From Halobaculum sp. CBA1158 (GTDB lineage: Archaea > Halobacteriota > Halobacteria > Halobacteriales > Haloferacaceae): 64,000 nt of DNA. Both the position numbers and the translations under genes were made by a program. The notes under the pieces are model-generated. The model did not search any database. It was not told the origin of the DNA and was given only the letters and a program-made list of their open reading frames with translations. The DNA lies in NCBI RefSeq assembly GCF_021431925.1, contig NZ_CP090372.1, positions 124,001 through 188,000 on the forward strand, in the 5' to 3' direction. This document shows, one piece after another, positions 26,609-33,152 of the stretch (its first letter is position 1; each line of letters begins with the position of its first letter).

Positions 26609-27718
26609 TCAGTCGTCGGTCCACTCGAGCACGGTCGCGGCCCACGTGTAGCCCGTGCCGGCCGCGAGCAACAGGACCACGTCGCCGTCGCCGACGCGGT
26701 CGCGGTCGAGGCCCGCTCGCAGCGCCAGCGCCTGGTCGGCGCTCTGGACGTGGCCGTAGTCGTCGAGGTAGTAGCTCTCGTCCTCGTCGACGCCGAGTTC
26801 GCCGCGGAGGTACTCGTGGAACGAGCGCTTCATGTGGGTGAGCGCGAGGAAGTCGACGGCGTCGCGGTCGTAGCCGGAGGCCGCCAGCGCGTCGTCGGCG
26901 ACCGAGAGGAACGCGGGCGCGGACACGTCCGCGAGTCGCTCCTTCATGTCGTCGGGGTCGGGCACGGTCAGGGTGTGCTCGCCGGCGTCGACGGTCTCTC
27001 GACTCGGCGGCCGTGCGGACCCACCGGCCGGCATCACCACGTCGCGTGAGAAGCTCCCGTCGGTGGTCGCCGCGGATTCGCGGACGAGCGCGCGAGTGCG
27101 GTCGGCGGCCGGTTCCGCCTCCAGCACGGTCGCGGCCGCGCCCGAGCCGAAGTTGAACATGAAGCTCGCGTCCTCGTCGCCGTAGTCGACGAGGTCCTCC
27201 TCGCGGCTCGCCGTGACGAGGAGGGCCGTGTCGATGTCGCCGACGCGGAGCTGTGCTGCGGTGTGGCGGATCGCGACGGGCGCGCCCGCACACAGCGTGT
27301 ACGACTCGTGGGCGTACGCGTCGCTCGCACCCAGGCGCTCGCACACGTCGGCGGCCGCCGACCAGACGACGTGGTCCTTGTACTCGCTGCCGTGGTAGAG
27401 CACGAGGTCGAGGTCGGCGGCGTCGACGCCGGCGTCCGCCAGCGCCTCGCGGCCGGCGGCGACGCACATGTCCGAGACGTGGTCGTCGTCGGGCGGGCAC
27501 ACGCGCTTCTCGCGCAGTCCCATCTTCTCGACGATCACGTCCTCCGGGATCCCGCTTTCCGCGGCGATCGCCTCGCCGGTCAGCACCTCGCTCGGCACGT
27601 ACGTCGCGAGCCCTGTGAGTGCGACCGTCCGCCCCGGCGACCCCCTCGCGTCGGAGAGCTGAGGGGCGTCGCCTGCGCCGGTGGCCTTGTCGCCGGCGAC
27701 GGCGTCGCCCTCACTCAT
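26609..27718 (-). CDS. KAS III/HMG-CoA synthase-like thiolase-fold enzyme
   Basis: A 369-residue thiolase-fold condensing enzyme. The nucleophile is Cys143 in YTLCAGAP and the first active-site His is His295 in LTHMKRSFHEYL. Where FabH has YGNTSA, this protein has YGHVQSA, so the third residue is His323 instead of Asn. The residue set is thus Cys-His-His rather than Cys-His-Asn. The N-terminal 30 residues are an unconserved tail. It overlaps the livM stop by 8 bp and is presumably the last gene of the liv operon. It may condense or cleave an acyl-CoA derived from the imported substrate (inference). Confidence 0.82.
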   Translation of the reverse strand: MSEGDAVAGDKATGAGDAPQLSDARGSPGRTVALTGLATYVPSEVLTGEAIAAESGIPEDVIVEKMGLREKRVCPPDDDHVSDMCVAAGREALADAGVDAADLDLVLYHGSEYKDHVVWSAAADVCERLGASDAYAHESYTLCAGAPVAIRHTAAQLRVGDIDTALLVTASREEDLVDYGDEDASFMFNFGSGAAATVLEAEPAADRTRALVRESAATTDGSFSRDVVMPAGGSARPPSRETVDAGEHTLTVPDPDDMKERLADVSAPAFLSVADDALAASGYDRDAVDFLALTHMKRSFHEYLRGELGVDEDESYYLDDYGHVQSADQALALRAGLDRDRVGDGDVVLLLAAGTGYTWAATVLEWTDD

Positions 27719-29066
27719 TCAGCCACCTCCGGACGTGTCGCGGGACGGCCTTCGCGAGCGTGCCGCCCATGCGGTCGCGGGCCGTGCCCAGCAGCCCGTT
27801 CGGGACGTAGAGGACGAACAGCACGAACACGAGGCCGACGTACAGCGCGGCGTGGCCGTTGAGGAACGTGTCGATCGCCTCCGCGACCGTGAGGCCGTTG
27901 TACAGCTCCGTCGCCAGCGTCGCGTCTCCGACGTTCGCCCGGAGGTACGGCAGCAGGCCGCCGCCGCCGCCCTCTTTCGAGAGGAATTCGCGGACCGTCT
28001 CGTCGAAGAGGTGGCCGAATAGCGGGCCGGCGATGGTGCCGAAGCCGCCGATGATCGACGCGAGCAGGGCGTCGCCGGCGACGAGGAAGTAGAAGCCGTT
28101 CTCGGGCGTCACCGACCGCCGGAAGCCCGCGAACAGCGCCCCGGCGACGCCCGCGAAGAAGCCCGAGACGACGAACGCCGCGAGCTTGTACGCGTAGGTG
28201 TTGTACCCGACCGCGCGGGCGCGCTCCTCGTTCTCGCGGATCGCGATCAGGGTTCGCCCGAACGGCGAGTGGACGAGCCGCTGCAGCGCGAAGTAGCACA
28301 CGAGCACGACCGCGCCGATCGCGTAGAACGACACCTCCGTCGGCGACAGGTCGATGAAGCCGAACAGCCCCTCGATGGTGTCGCCGGTGAGCTGTCCGAT
28401 CGCGACCGAGAGCCCGTCGACACCGGGAACACCGATCCTGAAGCCATCCAGCGATCCCGTGACTGCGACGCCGTCGCGGGGGGCCGAGGAGACGAAGTCC
28501 CAGTCGCGGACGAACACGTACAGCACCTGCGAGAAGCCTAACGTGATCATCGCGAAGTAGACGCCCGACAGCCGGAAGGAGACGCTCCCGATCGCGAGCG
28601 CGACGACCGCGGCGGCCAGTCCCGCGAGCACGATCAGCAGCATGAACGGCGTCTCAGGGCCGAGCATCGGGATCTTCCCGTTGGCCGCGAGCACGACGAG
28701 GTACGCGCCCGTGCCGTAGAACGCCGCGTGGCCGAACGAGAGGTAGCCCGTGTAGCCGCTGATGAAGTCGAACGACATCGCGAACAGCCCGAAGAACAAC
28801 ACGACGACGAGCGTCTCGATGCGCGGCAGGAGAGCGACGAACTCGGCGGACAGCCCGGAGTTCACGAGCACCGAGTACACGCCCGGGTACGCCGCGAACA
28901 CGAACACGACCGCGAGGTGGACCAGGTGGTCGCGCGCGTACGTGAGCGGCCACGCCTCGTCGGTGGCGACCGCTTCTGACGCGGGAGTCGTCGCTTCCGC
29001 GGTCTCCGTAGCGTCGGCCGCCGCGACCGCCTCGGCGGAATCGGGGTCGGAATCGGGGTCGCTAAT
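27711..29066 (-). CDS. livM: Branched-chain amino-acid-type ABC transporter permease LivM (apparent ATT start)
   Basis: The obvious frame begins at a GTG at 28907 (398 residues), but the same frame stays open upstream and encodes a typical haloarchaeal start, (I)SDPDSDPDSAEAVAAA...LTYARDHLVHLAV. No ATG, GTG or TTG occurs there; the first codon would be ATT at 29066-29064, overlapping the livH stop as ATTAG. GGAGGTG sits 7 nt before it. With that start the protein has 451 residues. It has 8-10 membrane helices and the LivM signatures DFISGYTGYLSFGHAAFYG and GRTLIAIRENEERARAVGY. It is an importer permease working with LivH, G, F and J. Confidence 0.85.
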   Translation of the reverse strand: MSDPDSDPDSAEAVAAADATETAEATTPASEAVATDEAWPLTYARDHLVHLAVVFVFAAYPGVYSVLVNSGLSAEFVALLPRIETLVVVLFFGLFAMSFDFISGYTGYLSFGHAAFYGTGAYLVVLAANGKIPMLGPETPFMLLIVLAGLAAAVVALAIGSVSFRLSGVYFAMITLGFSQVLYVFVRDWDFVSSAPRDGVAVTGSLDGFRIGVPGVDGLSVAIGQLTGDTIEGLFGFIDLSPTEVSFYAIGAVVLVCYFALQRLVHSPFGRTLIAIRENEERARAVGYNTYAYKLAAFVVSGFFAGVAGALFAGFRRSVTPENGFYFLVAGDALLASIIGGFGTIAGPLFGHLFDETVREFLSKEGGGGGLLPYLRANVGDATLATELYNGLTVAEAIDTFLNGHAALYVGLVFVLFVLYVPNGLLGTARDRMGGTLAKAVPRHVRRWLNE

Positions 29067-30126
29067 GGCCCCCCACCTCCGAGACGCCGTACAGACCCTG
29101 CGGCTTCACGATCAGCGTGATCACGAGCACGAGGAACACGACCATCTCCGGCAGGCCGGTGAAGTCGATGAAGTTCTGGAACCACCACGTCATCGACGAG
29201 TCGACCATGCCGACGATCACGGCGGCGACGATCGTGCCCCGGAAGGTGCCGAGGCCGCCGACGATCACGACGACGAACGCCGGCAGCAGCGTCTCCGCCG
29301 CCAGCGGGACCGACGCCCCCCACGAGGGGTCCCAGGCGAGCAGCACGCCCGCCGCGCCGGCGATTCCCGTCCCGAGCGCGAAGACGACGGTGAACACGCG
29401 GCGCACGTCGACGCCGAGCGCCGACAGCATCTCGCTGTCCTCGCCGCCCGCCCGCACGAACAGTCCGTACCTGGTTCGGGTGAGGAACAGGTGGACGCCG
29501 ACGACGGTCAGGACGCCGAAGGCGATCTGGAACAGCTCCAGGCCGCTGGCGGAGACGCCGCCGACGCCGATCGAGGCGGCGAGGAACTGCGGCTTGGTGC
29601 CGAGCACGTCCTGCCACACGGTCGACGGCTGGAGCCCGTAGAACAACACGAGGATCCGCGCGATCTCGTCGAGCACCAGGGTTAGCCCGAAGGTGAGCAG
29701 GATCTGATACAGCGGTGGCCGGTCGTAGATCGGCCTGATAAGCCCGATCTCCACCCCGCCGCCCAGCGCCGCGAGCAGGCCGAACGCGACGACGACGGCG
29801 ACGCCGAACGCCAGCAAACGGGCGGCCCCGCCGCTGGACTGGCCGACGACCGCGACGAGCACGAGCCCGCCGATGTACGCGCCGAGCATCGTGAGCGATC
29901 CGTGTGCGAAGTTCAGCACGCCCATGAGTCCGAACACGAGCGTCAGTCCGGCGGCGATCATCACGTAGAGGCTCGCCTCGGCGACGCCCCGCACGAACAC
30001 CTCCGCGAGCGTCGACGGCGAGAGGAACTCGAACAGCGCGTCCGCGAACTGCAACGGGAGCGCGGACGGCGACGGAACCGCAAGCGTCGACGCCGCGAGC
30101 GACGGCACGGCAGCGGCGACGCTCAT
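29062..30126 (-). CDS. livH: Branched-chain amino-acid-type ABC transporter permease LivH
   Basis: A 354-residue permease. After a 45-residue Ala/Ser-rich N-terminus there are about eight hydrophobic helices. LYVMIAAGLTLVFGLMGVLNFAHG is the LivH signature, followed by RPIYDRPPLYQILLTFG and LGVDVRRVFTVVFALGTGIAG. It forms the membrane channel with LivM. Its ATG overlaps the livF stop (ATGA) and its TAG stop overlaps the proposed ATT start of livM. The importer family handles branched-chain amino acids, urea or organic acids; the actual ligand here is not known. Confidence 0.93.
   Translation of the reverse strand: MSVAAAVPSLAASTLAVPSPSALPLQFADALFEFLSPSTLAEVFVRGVAEASLYVMIAAGLTLVFGLMGVLNFAHGSLTMLGAYIGGLVLVAVVGQSSGGAARLLAFGVAVVVAFGLLAALGGGVEIGLIRPIYDRPPLYQILLTFGLTLVLDEIARILVLFYGLQPSTVWQDVLGTKPQFLAASIGVGGVSASGLELFQIAFGVLTVVGVHLFLTRTRYGLFVRAGGEDSEMLSALGVDVRRVFTVVFALGTGIAGAAGVLLAWDPSWGASVPLAAETLLPAFVVVIVGGLGTFRGTIVAAVIVGMVDSSMTWWFQNFIDFTGLPEMVVFLVLVITLIVKPQGLYGVSEVGGH
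29074..29080 (-). promoter_or_regulatory. Shine-Dalgarno sequence for livM
   Basis: On the minus strand GGAGGTG is complementary to the conserved 16S rRNA 3' end and is spaced 7 nt from the ATT at 29066. It lies inside the end of livH. It argues that translation of livM begins at ATT rather than at the GTG 53 codons downstream. Confidence 0.6.
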
Positions 30127-30845
30127 GCCGACAGGTACCTCCTGAGTCGCTCGCCGTCGGGACTCACGTCCGCTGTGTCGCCGTCGTCGACGACCGTGCC
30201 GTGATCGAGGACGTAGAAGCGGTCGGCCACGTCAAGCGCCAGCGGGAGGTTCTGCTCGACGAGCAGCATCGTCGTGTCGGTGGCGGCCTCCGTCAGGGCC
30301 TCGGCGACCGCCTCGACGATCAGCGGCGCGAGCCCCTCGCTGGGCTCGTCCACCAACAGCAGGTCGTTGTCGCCGACGAGCCCGCGGGCGATCGCGAGCA
30401 TCTGCTGTTGGCCGCCCGAAAGGTCGGCGGCGTTCGCCTCCCGGCGCTCGCGCAGGTCGGGGAACGTCTCGAACGCGAGGTCGAGCCCCGCCTCCGCGTC
30501 GTCGGCGTCCGGCACGGCGACGCGGACGTTCTCCTCGACCGAGAGCTGCCCGAACATCCGGCGGTCCTCCGGGATCCACCCGACGCCGCGGGCGGCGACC
30601 TCGTGGGTGTCGCGGCCGACGACCTCCTCGCCACGCAGACGGATCGACCCCTCTCGCGGCGGCGTCAACTGGAGGATCGACCGGATCGTCGTCGTCTTTC
30701 CGACGCCGTTTCGGCCCATCAGCGCGACCACCTCGCCCTCGTGCACCTCGAGGTCGACCCCCTCGAGCACGTGGCTGTCGCCGTAGTACGTCTGGATCCC
30801 CTCGACGGCGAGCAGCGGTTCGCCGTCGTCGGCGTCGACACTCAC
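30123..30845 (-). CDS. livF: ABC transporter ATP-binding protein LivF
   Basis: A 240-residue ATPase starting with GTG (GTGA overlap with livG). Walker A is GRNGVGKTT, the Q-loop region QLTPP follows, the signature is LSGGQQQMLAIARGL, and Walker B is LLLVDEPSEGLAP. The H-loop in this type is replaced in part (VEQNLPLALDVADR), as is normal for LivF. It pairs with LivG to drive the LivHM importer. Confidence 0.94.
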   Translation of the reverse strand: MSVDADDGEPLLAVEGIQTYYGDSHVLEGVDLEVHEGEVVALMGRNGVGKTTTIRSILQLTPPREGSIRLRGEEVVGRDTHEVAARGVGWIPEDRRMFGQLSVEENVRVAVPDADDAEAGLDLAFETFPDLRERREANAADLSGGQQQMLAIARGLVGDNDLLLVDEPSEGLAPLIVEAVAEALTEAATDTTMLLVEQNLPLALDVADRFYVLDHGTVVDDGDTADVSPDGERLRRYLSA

Positions 30846-31717
30846 GCGGGCTCACCCCCGTCGCCGCCGGAGTCGGCGGCCGCGTCGCCTCCGGCGGTGT
30901 CGTCGCTGCCGGCGTCGCCGCCGGCGGGCGACCCCGATCCGGGCTCGTAGCCGCCGAGGTACGCCTTCTGGACCTCGGGATCGTCGCGGACGGCGGCCGG
31001 TTCGTCGTCGGCGATGACCGCGCCCTGATTGAGCACGACGACGCGGTCGGACACCTCCATCACGATGTCCATGTTGTGCTCGACCAGGAGCACGGCGTGG
31101 TCGGTCGCCACGTCCTCGATGAGGTCGACCACGCGGTCGACGCTCTCGGAGGAGACGCCGGCGTTGGGCTCGTCGAGCAACAGCACGTCCGGGTCGCCCG
31201 CGAGCGCGACGGCCACTTCCAGTTGACGCTTCGCACCGTGAGAGAGGGCGGAGGCCGGTTTTTCCGCGCGGTCCGCGAGATCGACCCTGTCGAGGATCGC
31301 GTACGCCTCCTCGACGTGCTCGTCGAGGCGACCCGCGTTGCGCCAGAAGTTCCGCCCGTCGCCGGCGGCGGCCTGGGCGGCCACGCGGACGTTCTCGAGC
31401 ACGGTCGAGCCGGCAAAGACGTTCGTCACCTGATAGGATCGGTGGACGCCGAGCTGTGCGATCGCGTGGGGATCCGCGTCCGTGATGTCGAGCCAGCCGT
31501 CCTCGTCGTCGGCCGCCGCGCGCGCGGCGTCCGTCCGTATCTCGACGGTCCCCTCTGTGGGCTCGAGCACCCCCGTCAGGAGGTTGAAGAACGTCGTCTT
31601 GCCAGCGCCGTTGGGGCCGATGAGCGAGCACAGTTCATCGCCGCCCAGTTCGAAGTCCACGTCGTCGACCGCTGTGAGGCCGCCGAACCGCTTGGTGAGG
31701 CCTCTCGTGTGCAGCAT
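30842..31717 (-). CDS. livG: ABC transporter ATP-binding protein LivG
   Basis: A 291-residue ATPase. It has Walker A (GPNGAGKTT), the signature LSHGAKRQLEVAVAL and Walker B (VLLLDEPNAGVS), then VEHNMDIVMEVSDRV, all LivG-type. A C-terminal tail of about 35 residues is Gly/Asp/Ser-rich and looks disordered. It follows livJ by only 4 bp, and its stop overlaps livF. One insert near 60-75 is acidic (AADDEDGWLDITDAD). Confidence 0.93.
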   Translation of the reverse strand: MLHTRGLTKRFGGLTAVDDVDFELGGDELCSLIGPNGAGKTTFFNLLTGVLEPTEGTVEIRTDAARAAADDEDGWLDITDADPHAIAQLGVHRSYQVTNVFAGSTVLENVRVAAQAAAGDGRNFWRNAGRLDEHVEEAYAILDRVDLADRAEKPASALSHGAKRQLEVAVALAGDPDVLLLDEPNAGVSSESVDRVVDLIEDVATDHAVLLVEHNMDIVMEVSDRVVVLNQGAVIADDEPAAVRDDPEVQKAYLGGYEPGSGSPAGGDAGSDDTAGGDAAADSGGDGGEPA

Positions 31718-31721
31718 CGAC

Positions 31722-33152
31722 TTACAGCGAGCAGTTCATCCCGTCGTCGTCGGCCGGGATGGTCGTCTCGTCGGCCCCGATGCGCGCGACGGGCTCGCTG
31801 GGCTGGACTGGCGCGCCCCACGAGTCGCTCCACTCGTCGGCTGTGGGGACGACGTTCGCGACTGTCATCTCCGAGCGTGCCTGGTTATTGTACTCCTGGA
31901 ACGTGTACGCGTCAGACCCCTTCGGCGTGTCGGCGACGGTCATCCCGCGCATCTCGGCGGCGATGTCCGCACCCTCGGTCGACCCGCTCCCCTCAACGCC
32001 CTGCACGATGGCGGAAGCGGCCGTGAACGTCCCCGAGGTGAACAGGTCCGGGACCTTCCCGTAGGCGTTCACGTAGCCGTCGACGAACGCCGAGTTGATC
32101 TCGTTGTCGTACTGGTTCCAGTGGTAGCGCGTCGTGAACGGGCCGATCCCGGCCCCCGCCAGCTTCTCCTCGGTGAGCGGCTCGCCGAGTTGGTTCTGGA
32201 GCAGGCCGCCGACGACGTTGTTGGTGATCTCGGTCGCGAAGCCGCCGAAGACGGTGTAGTCGTAGTCGCCGTTGAGGTACGACGTGAACAGGTTCGGCAG
32301 CGTCGCGACGGTGAAGCCGCCGACGATCCCCTCCGCGCCGGCCTCGGCGGCGTTGTCGAGCAGGCCCTCCCACTCGCTGTACCCCTGCGGGACGAAGCGC
32401 TTGCCGACGATCTCGACGCCCTCCGCCTCCAGGACCGCCTCGTAGTTGTTGACGACCGCACGGCCGAACGAGTAGTCAGCGCCGAACAGGAACACCCGCG
32501 AGACGTCCGATTCCCGGGCGACGTAGCGACCCCCGGATCGCGCGTCCATCGCCGTGTTCTCGGAGGCGCGGAAGATCTGCTCGCCGCAGGTCGCGGACTC
32601 CGCCGTCGACGACGCCGACGCCGCCGGCCCGATCATGTACGGGACGCCGGCCTGTTTCGCGACCGTCTCGGAAACCCGGTTGGCCGCCCCCGAAGAGGCG
32701 CAGCCGAACAGCATGTCCACGTCCTCGTTCGTCACGAGGTTCGTCGCCAGCGACTGCGCCGTGTCGGCGGAGAACTGCGAGTCACGGATCAGCAGTTCGT
32801 AGTCCACGTCGCCGACGGTGACCGTCTGGCTCCCCGTCTCCGCCTCCACCGACGGCGACGCGCCGGCCTTGTAGGCGAGCCCGGAGGAGAACCCCCACAG
32901 CGCCTGTTGGCCGTAGTACTGCAGGTCGCCGGAGATCGGCTGCATCACGCCGATCTTCACCGTCCCGGACGCCCCGCCTGAACCGCCTGTCGTCGTGCCT
33001 TCCATATCGTCGCTCGCCTCCGTGTCGGCCTGCGTGTCGGTCGATCCCTCGGTCTCGGTTCCGTCGCCGCCGCCCGAGCAGCCGGCGAGCGCGGCGATCC
33101 CGGACGCGCCGAGCGCCGCCAGCGTCCTGCGTCGTGTGATACGCTTGCTCAT
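31722..33152 (-). CDS. Periplasmic-type binding lipoprotein of the liv importer
   Basis: A 476-residue substrate-binding protein. The N-terminus RITRRRTLAALGASGIAALAGC combines a twin-arginine motif with a lipobox, so it should be exported folded by Tat and lipid-anchored. A 40-residue acidic/Thr linker precedes a type I periplasmic-binding fold (GTVKIGVMQPISGDLQYYG). This form resembles the amide-, urea- and short-chain-acid-binding members (AmiC/UrtA-like). It is the first gene of the operon. The 16-bp element at 33190-33205 lies 37 bp upstream of its ATG. Confidence 0.9.
   Translation of the reverse strand: MSKRITRRRTLAALGASGIAALAGCSGGGDGTETEGSTDTQADTEASDDMEGTTTGGSGGASGTVKIGVMQPISGDLQYYGQQALWGFSSGLAYKAGASPSVEAETGSQTVTVGDVDYELLIRDSQFSADTAQSLATNLVTNEDVDMLFGCASSGAANRVSETVAKQAGVPYMIGPAASASSTAESATCGEQIFRASENTAMDARSGGRYVARESDVSRVFLFGADYSFGRAVVNNYEAVLEAEGVEIVGKRFVPQGYSEWEGLLDNAAEAGAEGIVGGFTVATLPNLFTSYLNGDYDYTVFGGFATEITNNVVGGLLQNQLGEPLTEEKLAGAGIGPFTTRYHWNQYDNEINSAFVDGYVNAYGKVPDLFTSGTFTAASAIVQGVEGSGSTEGADIAAEMRGMTVADTPKGSDAYTFQEYNNQARSEMTVANVVPTADEWSDSWGAPVQPSEPVARIGADETTIPADDDGMNCSL

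Follow-up and report, generated by a model that had tools for sequence, protein, structure and literature searches.

How does translation of a gene begin when its reading frame holds no canonical start codon at its 5′ end? This question is raised by livM, a permease gene of the haloarchaeon Halobaculum sp. CBA1158, which is joined to the preceding gene, livH, through an ATT codon that overlaps the livH stop. Very few genes are known to start at ATT, and an overlap of 5 nt between a stop and a start is considered practically impossible because canonical start codons end in G.

The window analyzed here is a stretch of 64,000 nucleotides (contig NZ_CP090372.1, positions 124,001 to 188,000), and all positions are counted from its first letter. 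Its minus strand carries an operon for an ABC importer of the branched-chain-amino-acid type, in the order substrate-binding protein, livG, livF, livH and livM.

31722..33152, minus strand: substrate-binding protein (Peripla_BP_6)
30842..31717, minus strand: livG-type ATPase
30123..30845, minus strand: livF-type ATPase, joined to livG and to livH by ordinary 4-nt GTGA and ATGA overlaps
29062..30126, minus strand: livH-type permease (BPD_transp_2), 354 aa, Pfam PF02653 with E=2.5e-36, ending in GVSEVGGH before the stop
27711..29066, minus strand: livM-type permease read from ATT, 451 aa, Pfam PF02653 at residues 84-353 with E=1.2e-36 and 126.6 bits
26609..27718, minus strand: 3-oxoacyl-ACP synthase-like gene, overlapping the end of livM; a conserved neighbor

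The LivM of the window meets the criterion of a Pfam BPD_transp_2 domain. Its score against the NCBIfam LivM model NF008450 (94.7 bits) is below the cut-off of 366, so the substrate of the transporter is unproven.

The livH-livM junction

Direct reading of the minus strand gives the junction as GGAGGTG GGGGGCC ATT AG C, with the following features.

29074..29080, minus strand: Shine-Dalgarno-like GGAGGTG, within the livH coding sequence
29067..29073, minus strand: spacer GGGGGCC, 7 nt between the Shine-Dalgarno (SD) sequence and ATT, constant in length, with one silent site free to vary
29064..29066, minus strand: ATT, the inferred livM start codon, found at 112 of 112 non-redundant ATT loci and 138 of 144 junctions of the order
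29062..29064, minus strand: TAG stop of livH, its T common to ATT (ATTAG, a 5-nt overlap)
28908..29066, minus strand: N-terminal extension of LivM, (I/M)SDPDSDPDSAEA..., lost with a GTG start
28905..28907, minus strand: GTG, codon 54 and first canonical livM start, in the first hydrophobic segment; not conserved and rejected as the true start

The livM frame contains no ATG, GTG or TTG from an upstream TGA to the GTG at 28907; 5′ of ATT it reads a stop followed by SRRVCTASRRWGA before the isoleucine. The original prediction had claimed that no canonical start occurs until a GTG 53 codons in, that ATT at 29066 overlaps the livH TAG as ATTAG, and that GGAGGTG lies 7 nt upstream of ATT (29080-29074). 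All three claims are exact. The distance between stop and start meets the criterion for a termination-reinitiation pair (about -8 to +6 nt), and the overlap of -5 is outside the known canonical types of such pairs (-4 with ATGA or GTGA, -1 and -8). As a separate observation, a 12-bp tandem duplication (GACCCCGATTCC twice) opens the livM N-terminus at 29060-29037 of the minus strand.

Distribution across haloarchaea

The exact junction pattern, GGAGGTGGGNGGNCATTAG, is present in 132 of the 392 genomes of the order, almost always once, with carriers in 11 families and in 41 of 95 genera. No match to the reversed pattern, used as a control, occurred in the 392 genomes. An independent protein search identified a livM ortholog in 146 of the same genomes, and comparison of the two coordinate lists by eye placed the pattern directly 5′ of livM. 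The exact pattern is missing from 14 of the ortholog genomes, which were inspected singly; two of them have truncated genes and were excluded, which left 144 intact orthologous junctions. ATT is found at 138 of these. Six of the 14 genomes retain it (one as ATTAA, not ATTAG), five, all from one genus (g80), have an ATG in an ATGA overlap at the matching place, and one (G411) has a TTG in a TTGA overlap there. A canonical start at the matching place in homologs was taken as a criterion for coding from ATT, and it is met by these ATG and TTG genomes. All close relatives in the genus that have livM, and all orthologs of the family that were read, have an identical junction.

The ATT junction is not a one-genome oddity. 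Sequencing error and a mutated ATG, the second of which the original prediction had kept as an alternative, are excluded by conservation over the 11 families and 41 genera. Comparison of livM N-termini among relatives, the check that accompanied that prediction, shows that they share the ATT and not the GTG at 28907. A pattern scan of named genomes located the livH tail with CATTAG on 78 named contigs, all of them from Halobacteria, with carriers that include Haloarcula, Halorubrum, Natrialba, Natronomonas, Halorussus, Halobacterium, Haloferax elongans and Halosimplex. No orthologs beyond the order were detected in a sample of 247 genomes of the phylum. In one genome a second livH-livM copy was noted (L119 / L024, G006:C3:20822-23900), which has the same ATTAG junction and a livM split by a frameshift.

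Selection on the ATT codon, SD sequence and stop codon

The 'AT' of the putative start codon is supplied by the junction histidine codon of livH. This codon is CAT at 112 of 112 non-redundant ATT loci, and CAT accounts for 5.1% of histidine codons across the same genes. Loci obtained from the protein search alone carry no pattern bias, and CAT is used at the junction in all 57 of them. Conserved histidines elsewhere, in the motifs NFAHG of LivH and SFGHA of LivM, are encoded by CAC in 286 of 288 cases. The livH stop is TAG at 111 of the ATT loci and TAA at the remaining one, which keeps ATT; TGA never occurs there, and it is the stop of livM itself in 78 of 99 cases.

Changes at silent positions were counted on a tree of 110 ATT orthologs. 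The silent livH positions in the SD sequence, ATT and stop changed 0, 0, 1, 3, 0 and 1 times, those inside GGAGGTG accounting for 0, 0 and 1. There were 33 changes at the free silent site between the SD sequence and ATT (site -7) and 19-48 at several silent sites further upstream. Such counts are the mark of a fixed element of the form SD-N7-ATT-stop, and the ATT codon itself is under selection.

Ancestry and natural replacements

When 116 orthologs were placed on a tree with paralogs as the root, the g80 clade (ATG) and G411 (TTG) were the only members without ATT. The tree was made quickly and contains many weak branches; both exceptions are nested within it, so ATT is inferred to be ancestral to the livM orthologs and to have been replaced only twice. 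The N-termini read from canonical starts (MSTET, MSPES and MSSEK) match those read from ATT (ISTET, ISAET and ISSPD). The replacement in G411 (locus L113) is an economical one, in which CATTAGC has become CATTGAGC and ATT is thereby made a canonical TTG in a 4-nt overlap.

Probable coupled reinitiation at ATT

We consider production of LivM by termination-reinitiation at the ATT of the 5-nt overlap to be the best explanation of this locus, and a very probable one. That livM naturally initiates at ATT, in a manner coupled to the stop of livH, was the central proposal of the original prediction, and it draws support from the conservation at 138 of 144 junctions and from the ATG of g80 at the matching place, in the absence of protein-level proof. 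The ribosome that terminates livH at TAG would be held by the strong intragenic SD sequence GGAGGTG, whose pairing with the anti-SD sequence is assumed on general grounds. The held ribosome would then step back two bases, bringing ATT, with the T that it shares with the stop, into the P site, and would restart there, presumably with initiator Met-tRNA, to give a protein that begins M-S-D-P-D.... In a 5-nt overlap the last base of the start codon is also the T that opens the stop codon; this rules out NTG and leaves ATT as the natural near-cognate start. Sequence, conservation, reading frame and ancestry are established by the comparisons above; initiation at ATT, methionine as the first residue and strict coupling are inferred from them. 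Conservation alone cannot separate initiation from frameshifting, nor can it fix the identity of the first residue.

With such a mechanism livM would be essentially silent to independent initiation, and the output of LivM would be tied to that of LivH, its partner in the permease dimer. The likely effect is that no LivM forms without LivH, which would suit a 1:1 permease pair, this purpose being an inference. In Haloferax volcanii, reporters revealed strict coupling of overlapping genes through termination-reinitiation, and SD sequences, which are not used de novo in haloarchaea, often aid reinitiation (PMC6728339); the livH-livM element agrees fully with this picture. In E. coli, ATT is a weak start with about 0.3% of the activity of ATG, as the work of Hecht et al. 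is cited in PMC10666635; low LivM output would be expected for this reason unless the context helps. A broader proposal, which could as readily prove wrong as right, is that this junction represents a class of start codon that serves only coupled reinitiation. Its AUU, part of a -5 ATTAG overlap fixed ancestrally and throughout the order, would be inert for de novo and leaderless initiation and used by SD-anchored post-termination ribosomes, so that LivM would be made only after LivH.

A wider set of genes with this arrangement was sought. Elsewhere in the genome, GGAGGTG-N4-8-ATTRR occurs at two sites, and neither marks a junction of genes followed by a long open frame. The looser GGAGG-N5-10-ATTAG gave few matches in the genus, no more than its reversed control, and none except livM recurs with the same sequence. 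Within the window, no other ATT followed by AG, AA or GA and an open frame has both an SD sequence and a plausible gene pair. These scans do not point to further ATT genes that carry this SD sequence; weaker SD sequences were outside the survey.

Alternative readings of the junction

The main rival, less likely than reinitiation at ATT and in our view improbable, is a programmed +1 frameshift at GGC-CAT-TAG, in which paused ribosomes would shift and produce a LivH-LivM fusion with an acidic linker, the SD sequence acting as a stimulator as in bacterial prfB. At every ATT junction livM is indeed in the +1 frame of livH, with a stop at the site and an SD sequence upstream. Fusions also exist: a paralogous LivH-LivM pair (L222, in genome G066) is one open frame of 657 aa, and a metagenome-assembled genome (L120, G051:C1:2300200-2302722) has livH and livM in one frame (..EVGAISDS..), apparently through loss of one G from the G run. 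This assembly has a second frameshift in livM, and its fusion may be an error. The criterion for frameshifting was a conserved slippery codon together with a constant frame relation, and it is not met by the orthologs, g80 and G411 included. About half of the orthologs have the slippery G run interrupted by another base (GGGCGG, GGGTGG and GGGAGG), and slippage on this run was itself rejected as a candidate since the run is not conserved. The frame relation differs between the ATT junctions and the g80 and G411 lineages, where a canonical start occupies the same position. In paralogous livH-livM pairs of the same genus, seven of them clearly read, livM starts at an ATG or GTG that begins one base ahead of the livH stop (4-nt ATGA and GTGA overlaps). 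The SD sequence is 7 nt from ATT, a spacing suited to initiation, and 6 nt from CAT; the corresponding spacing in prfB is about 3 nt. Finally, it can be inferred that a histidine tRNA on CAU would pair poorly with AUU.

Much more doubtful is a start at a downstream canonical codon, here the GTG at 28907 as annotation pipelines place it, with the ATT region left untranslated. This reading agrees with public records: in nine of nine plasmid records from relatives (L202-L210) the annotated livM start falls 85-298 nt beyond the livH stop, at internal codons that vary. Such positions differ between genomes. Of 112 non-redundant orthologs, 75 lack any canonical start in the stretch from ATT to the conserved core, and 84 lack one upstream of ATT. 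In loci L051 and L084 the first such codon comes so late that a protein begun there would be missing most or all of the first segments; in L084 it is codon 106, at the MSFDF motif and past the first membrane segment. Absence of a canonical start at the livM 5′ end was a criterion for a start at ATT and is met, with none in the window before codon 54. The stretch from ATT to the core is 12-109 codons long in the orthologs, poorly conserved in sequence and rich in D, E, S, T and A, as is usual at haloarchaeal termini. The original prediction had judged it to be coding-like, and the orthologs bear this out: there are no in-frame stops in 4583 codons, compared with 24 and 63 in the other two forward frames, and GC3 is 85% versus 73% for GC1 and 64% for GC2. 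A downstream start would also leave the invariant SD-N7-ATTAG unexplained. The GTG at 28907, offered by the original prediction as an alternative start, is not conserved and is located in the first hydrophobic segment.

A third reading moves the start to a GTG that is in frame with livM and two codons 5′ of ATT (GTG GCC ATT), with ATT as an internal codon, and very little speaks for it. This GTG occurs in 24 of 112 orthologs, those in which the variable base is T (for example L041, L049 and L115); the window does not have it, nor do about four fifths of the orthologs. Its T comes and goes at the fastest-changing site of the junction, the one with 33 changes, while ATT is unchanged among these loci, and the codon is only 3 nt from GGAGG.

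It is just as hard to sustain that ATT is incidental in a block kept for another reason (the LivH C-terminal EVGGH, or an RNA or DNA element): the EVGGH tail before the livH stop is nearly invariant as protein among orthologs, and alifold predicts a weak hairpin over GGUGG-CCAUU (z about -2), but selection on the protein leaves silent sites (CAT, GTG and the G before GAG) free to change, and EVGGH is not essential, since the tail in the ATG genus g80 is GQGDHG. An additional role of the conserved block is not excluded.

Comparison with known systems

The infC gene of E. coli, which encodes IF3, resembles livM in that a conserved gene with an SD sequence starts at ATT, a codon of low efficiency de novo. 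The pcnB gene also has an AUU start. To our knowledge, archaea lack the bacterial IF3. The ATT of infC serves autoregulation by IF3 (PMC5472188), whereas that of livM is part of a 5-nt overlap with a preceding stop. In bacteria, IF3 regulates the non-canonical starts of both infC and sigR (PMC5472188). Like livM, sigR of Streptomyces keeps a non-canonical start across a genus, has a AGGAGGTG ribosome site and is mis-annotated; it differs from livM in that its start is GTC (GTT in two species), bacterial, repressed by IF3 and kept within 34 Streptomyces genomes, not order-wide (PMC5472188).

The ATGA and TAATG overlaps of Haloferax volcanii share with livM the stop-start overlap, the intragenic SD sequence and the encoding of subunits of one complex (PMC6728339, PMC10666635). 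Those pairs have -4, -1 or -8 overlaps with canonical starts, in contrast to the -5 overlap with ATT at livM. In a survey from 2023 that covered 2.66 million gene pairs, -5 overlaps were more than 1000-fold rarer than -4 overlaps, and it was left open whether they reflect annotation error or ATT starts; such overlaps are all but ruled out there, ATT being only suggested as a possible explanation of rare cases (PMC10666635). The orthologs of Haloferax HVO_1510 are similar to livM in having no canonical start, with peptides detected upstream of the first ATG, for which an atypical CTG or slippage was proposed; unlike livM, their start varies between species and is unresolved, with no conserved ATT or overlap (PMC8305020). 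The +1 frameshift of prfB has an SD-like sequence upstream of a stop at a frame junction, as at livM. The livM junction differs from it in having no conserved slippery codon, in its initiation-type spacing and in the canonical starts of two lineages. We found no published description of the livM case among reports of ATT starts in haloarchaea, within the open-licence literature.

The livH-livM junction provides more than 100 natural copies under strong silent-site selection, together with natural replacements by ATG and TTG. These copies and replacements make the question of the -5 overlap and ATT directly testable in a tractable archaeon.

Annotation, paralogs and neighboring genes

Gene-finders miss the ATT start, and the LivM protein is cut short in annotation as a result. 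Public annotation of livM can be systematically truncated, and all nine plasmid records start too late. The late starts leave false intergenic gaps in these records, and in one (L208) a hypothetical protein, probably spurious, is annotated on the minus strand within the gap. Open frames of about 650-680 aa are seen in many paralogs of the family; their lengths suggest that fused LivH-LivM paralogs are common in haloarchaea. Immediately 3′ of livM, a 3-oxoacyl-ACP synthase gene (PRK06840-type) is present in nine of nine plasmid relatives. It is an unusual partner for a liv operon and may hint at an acyl or carboxylate substrate.
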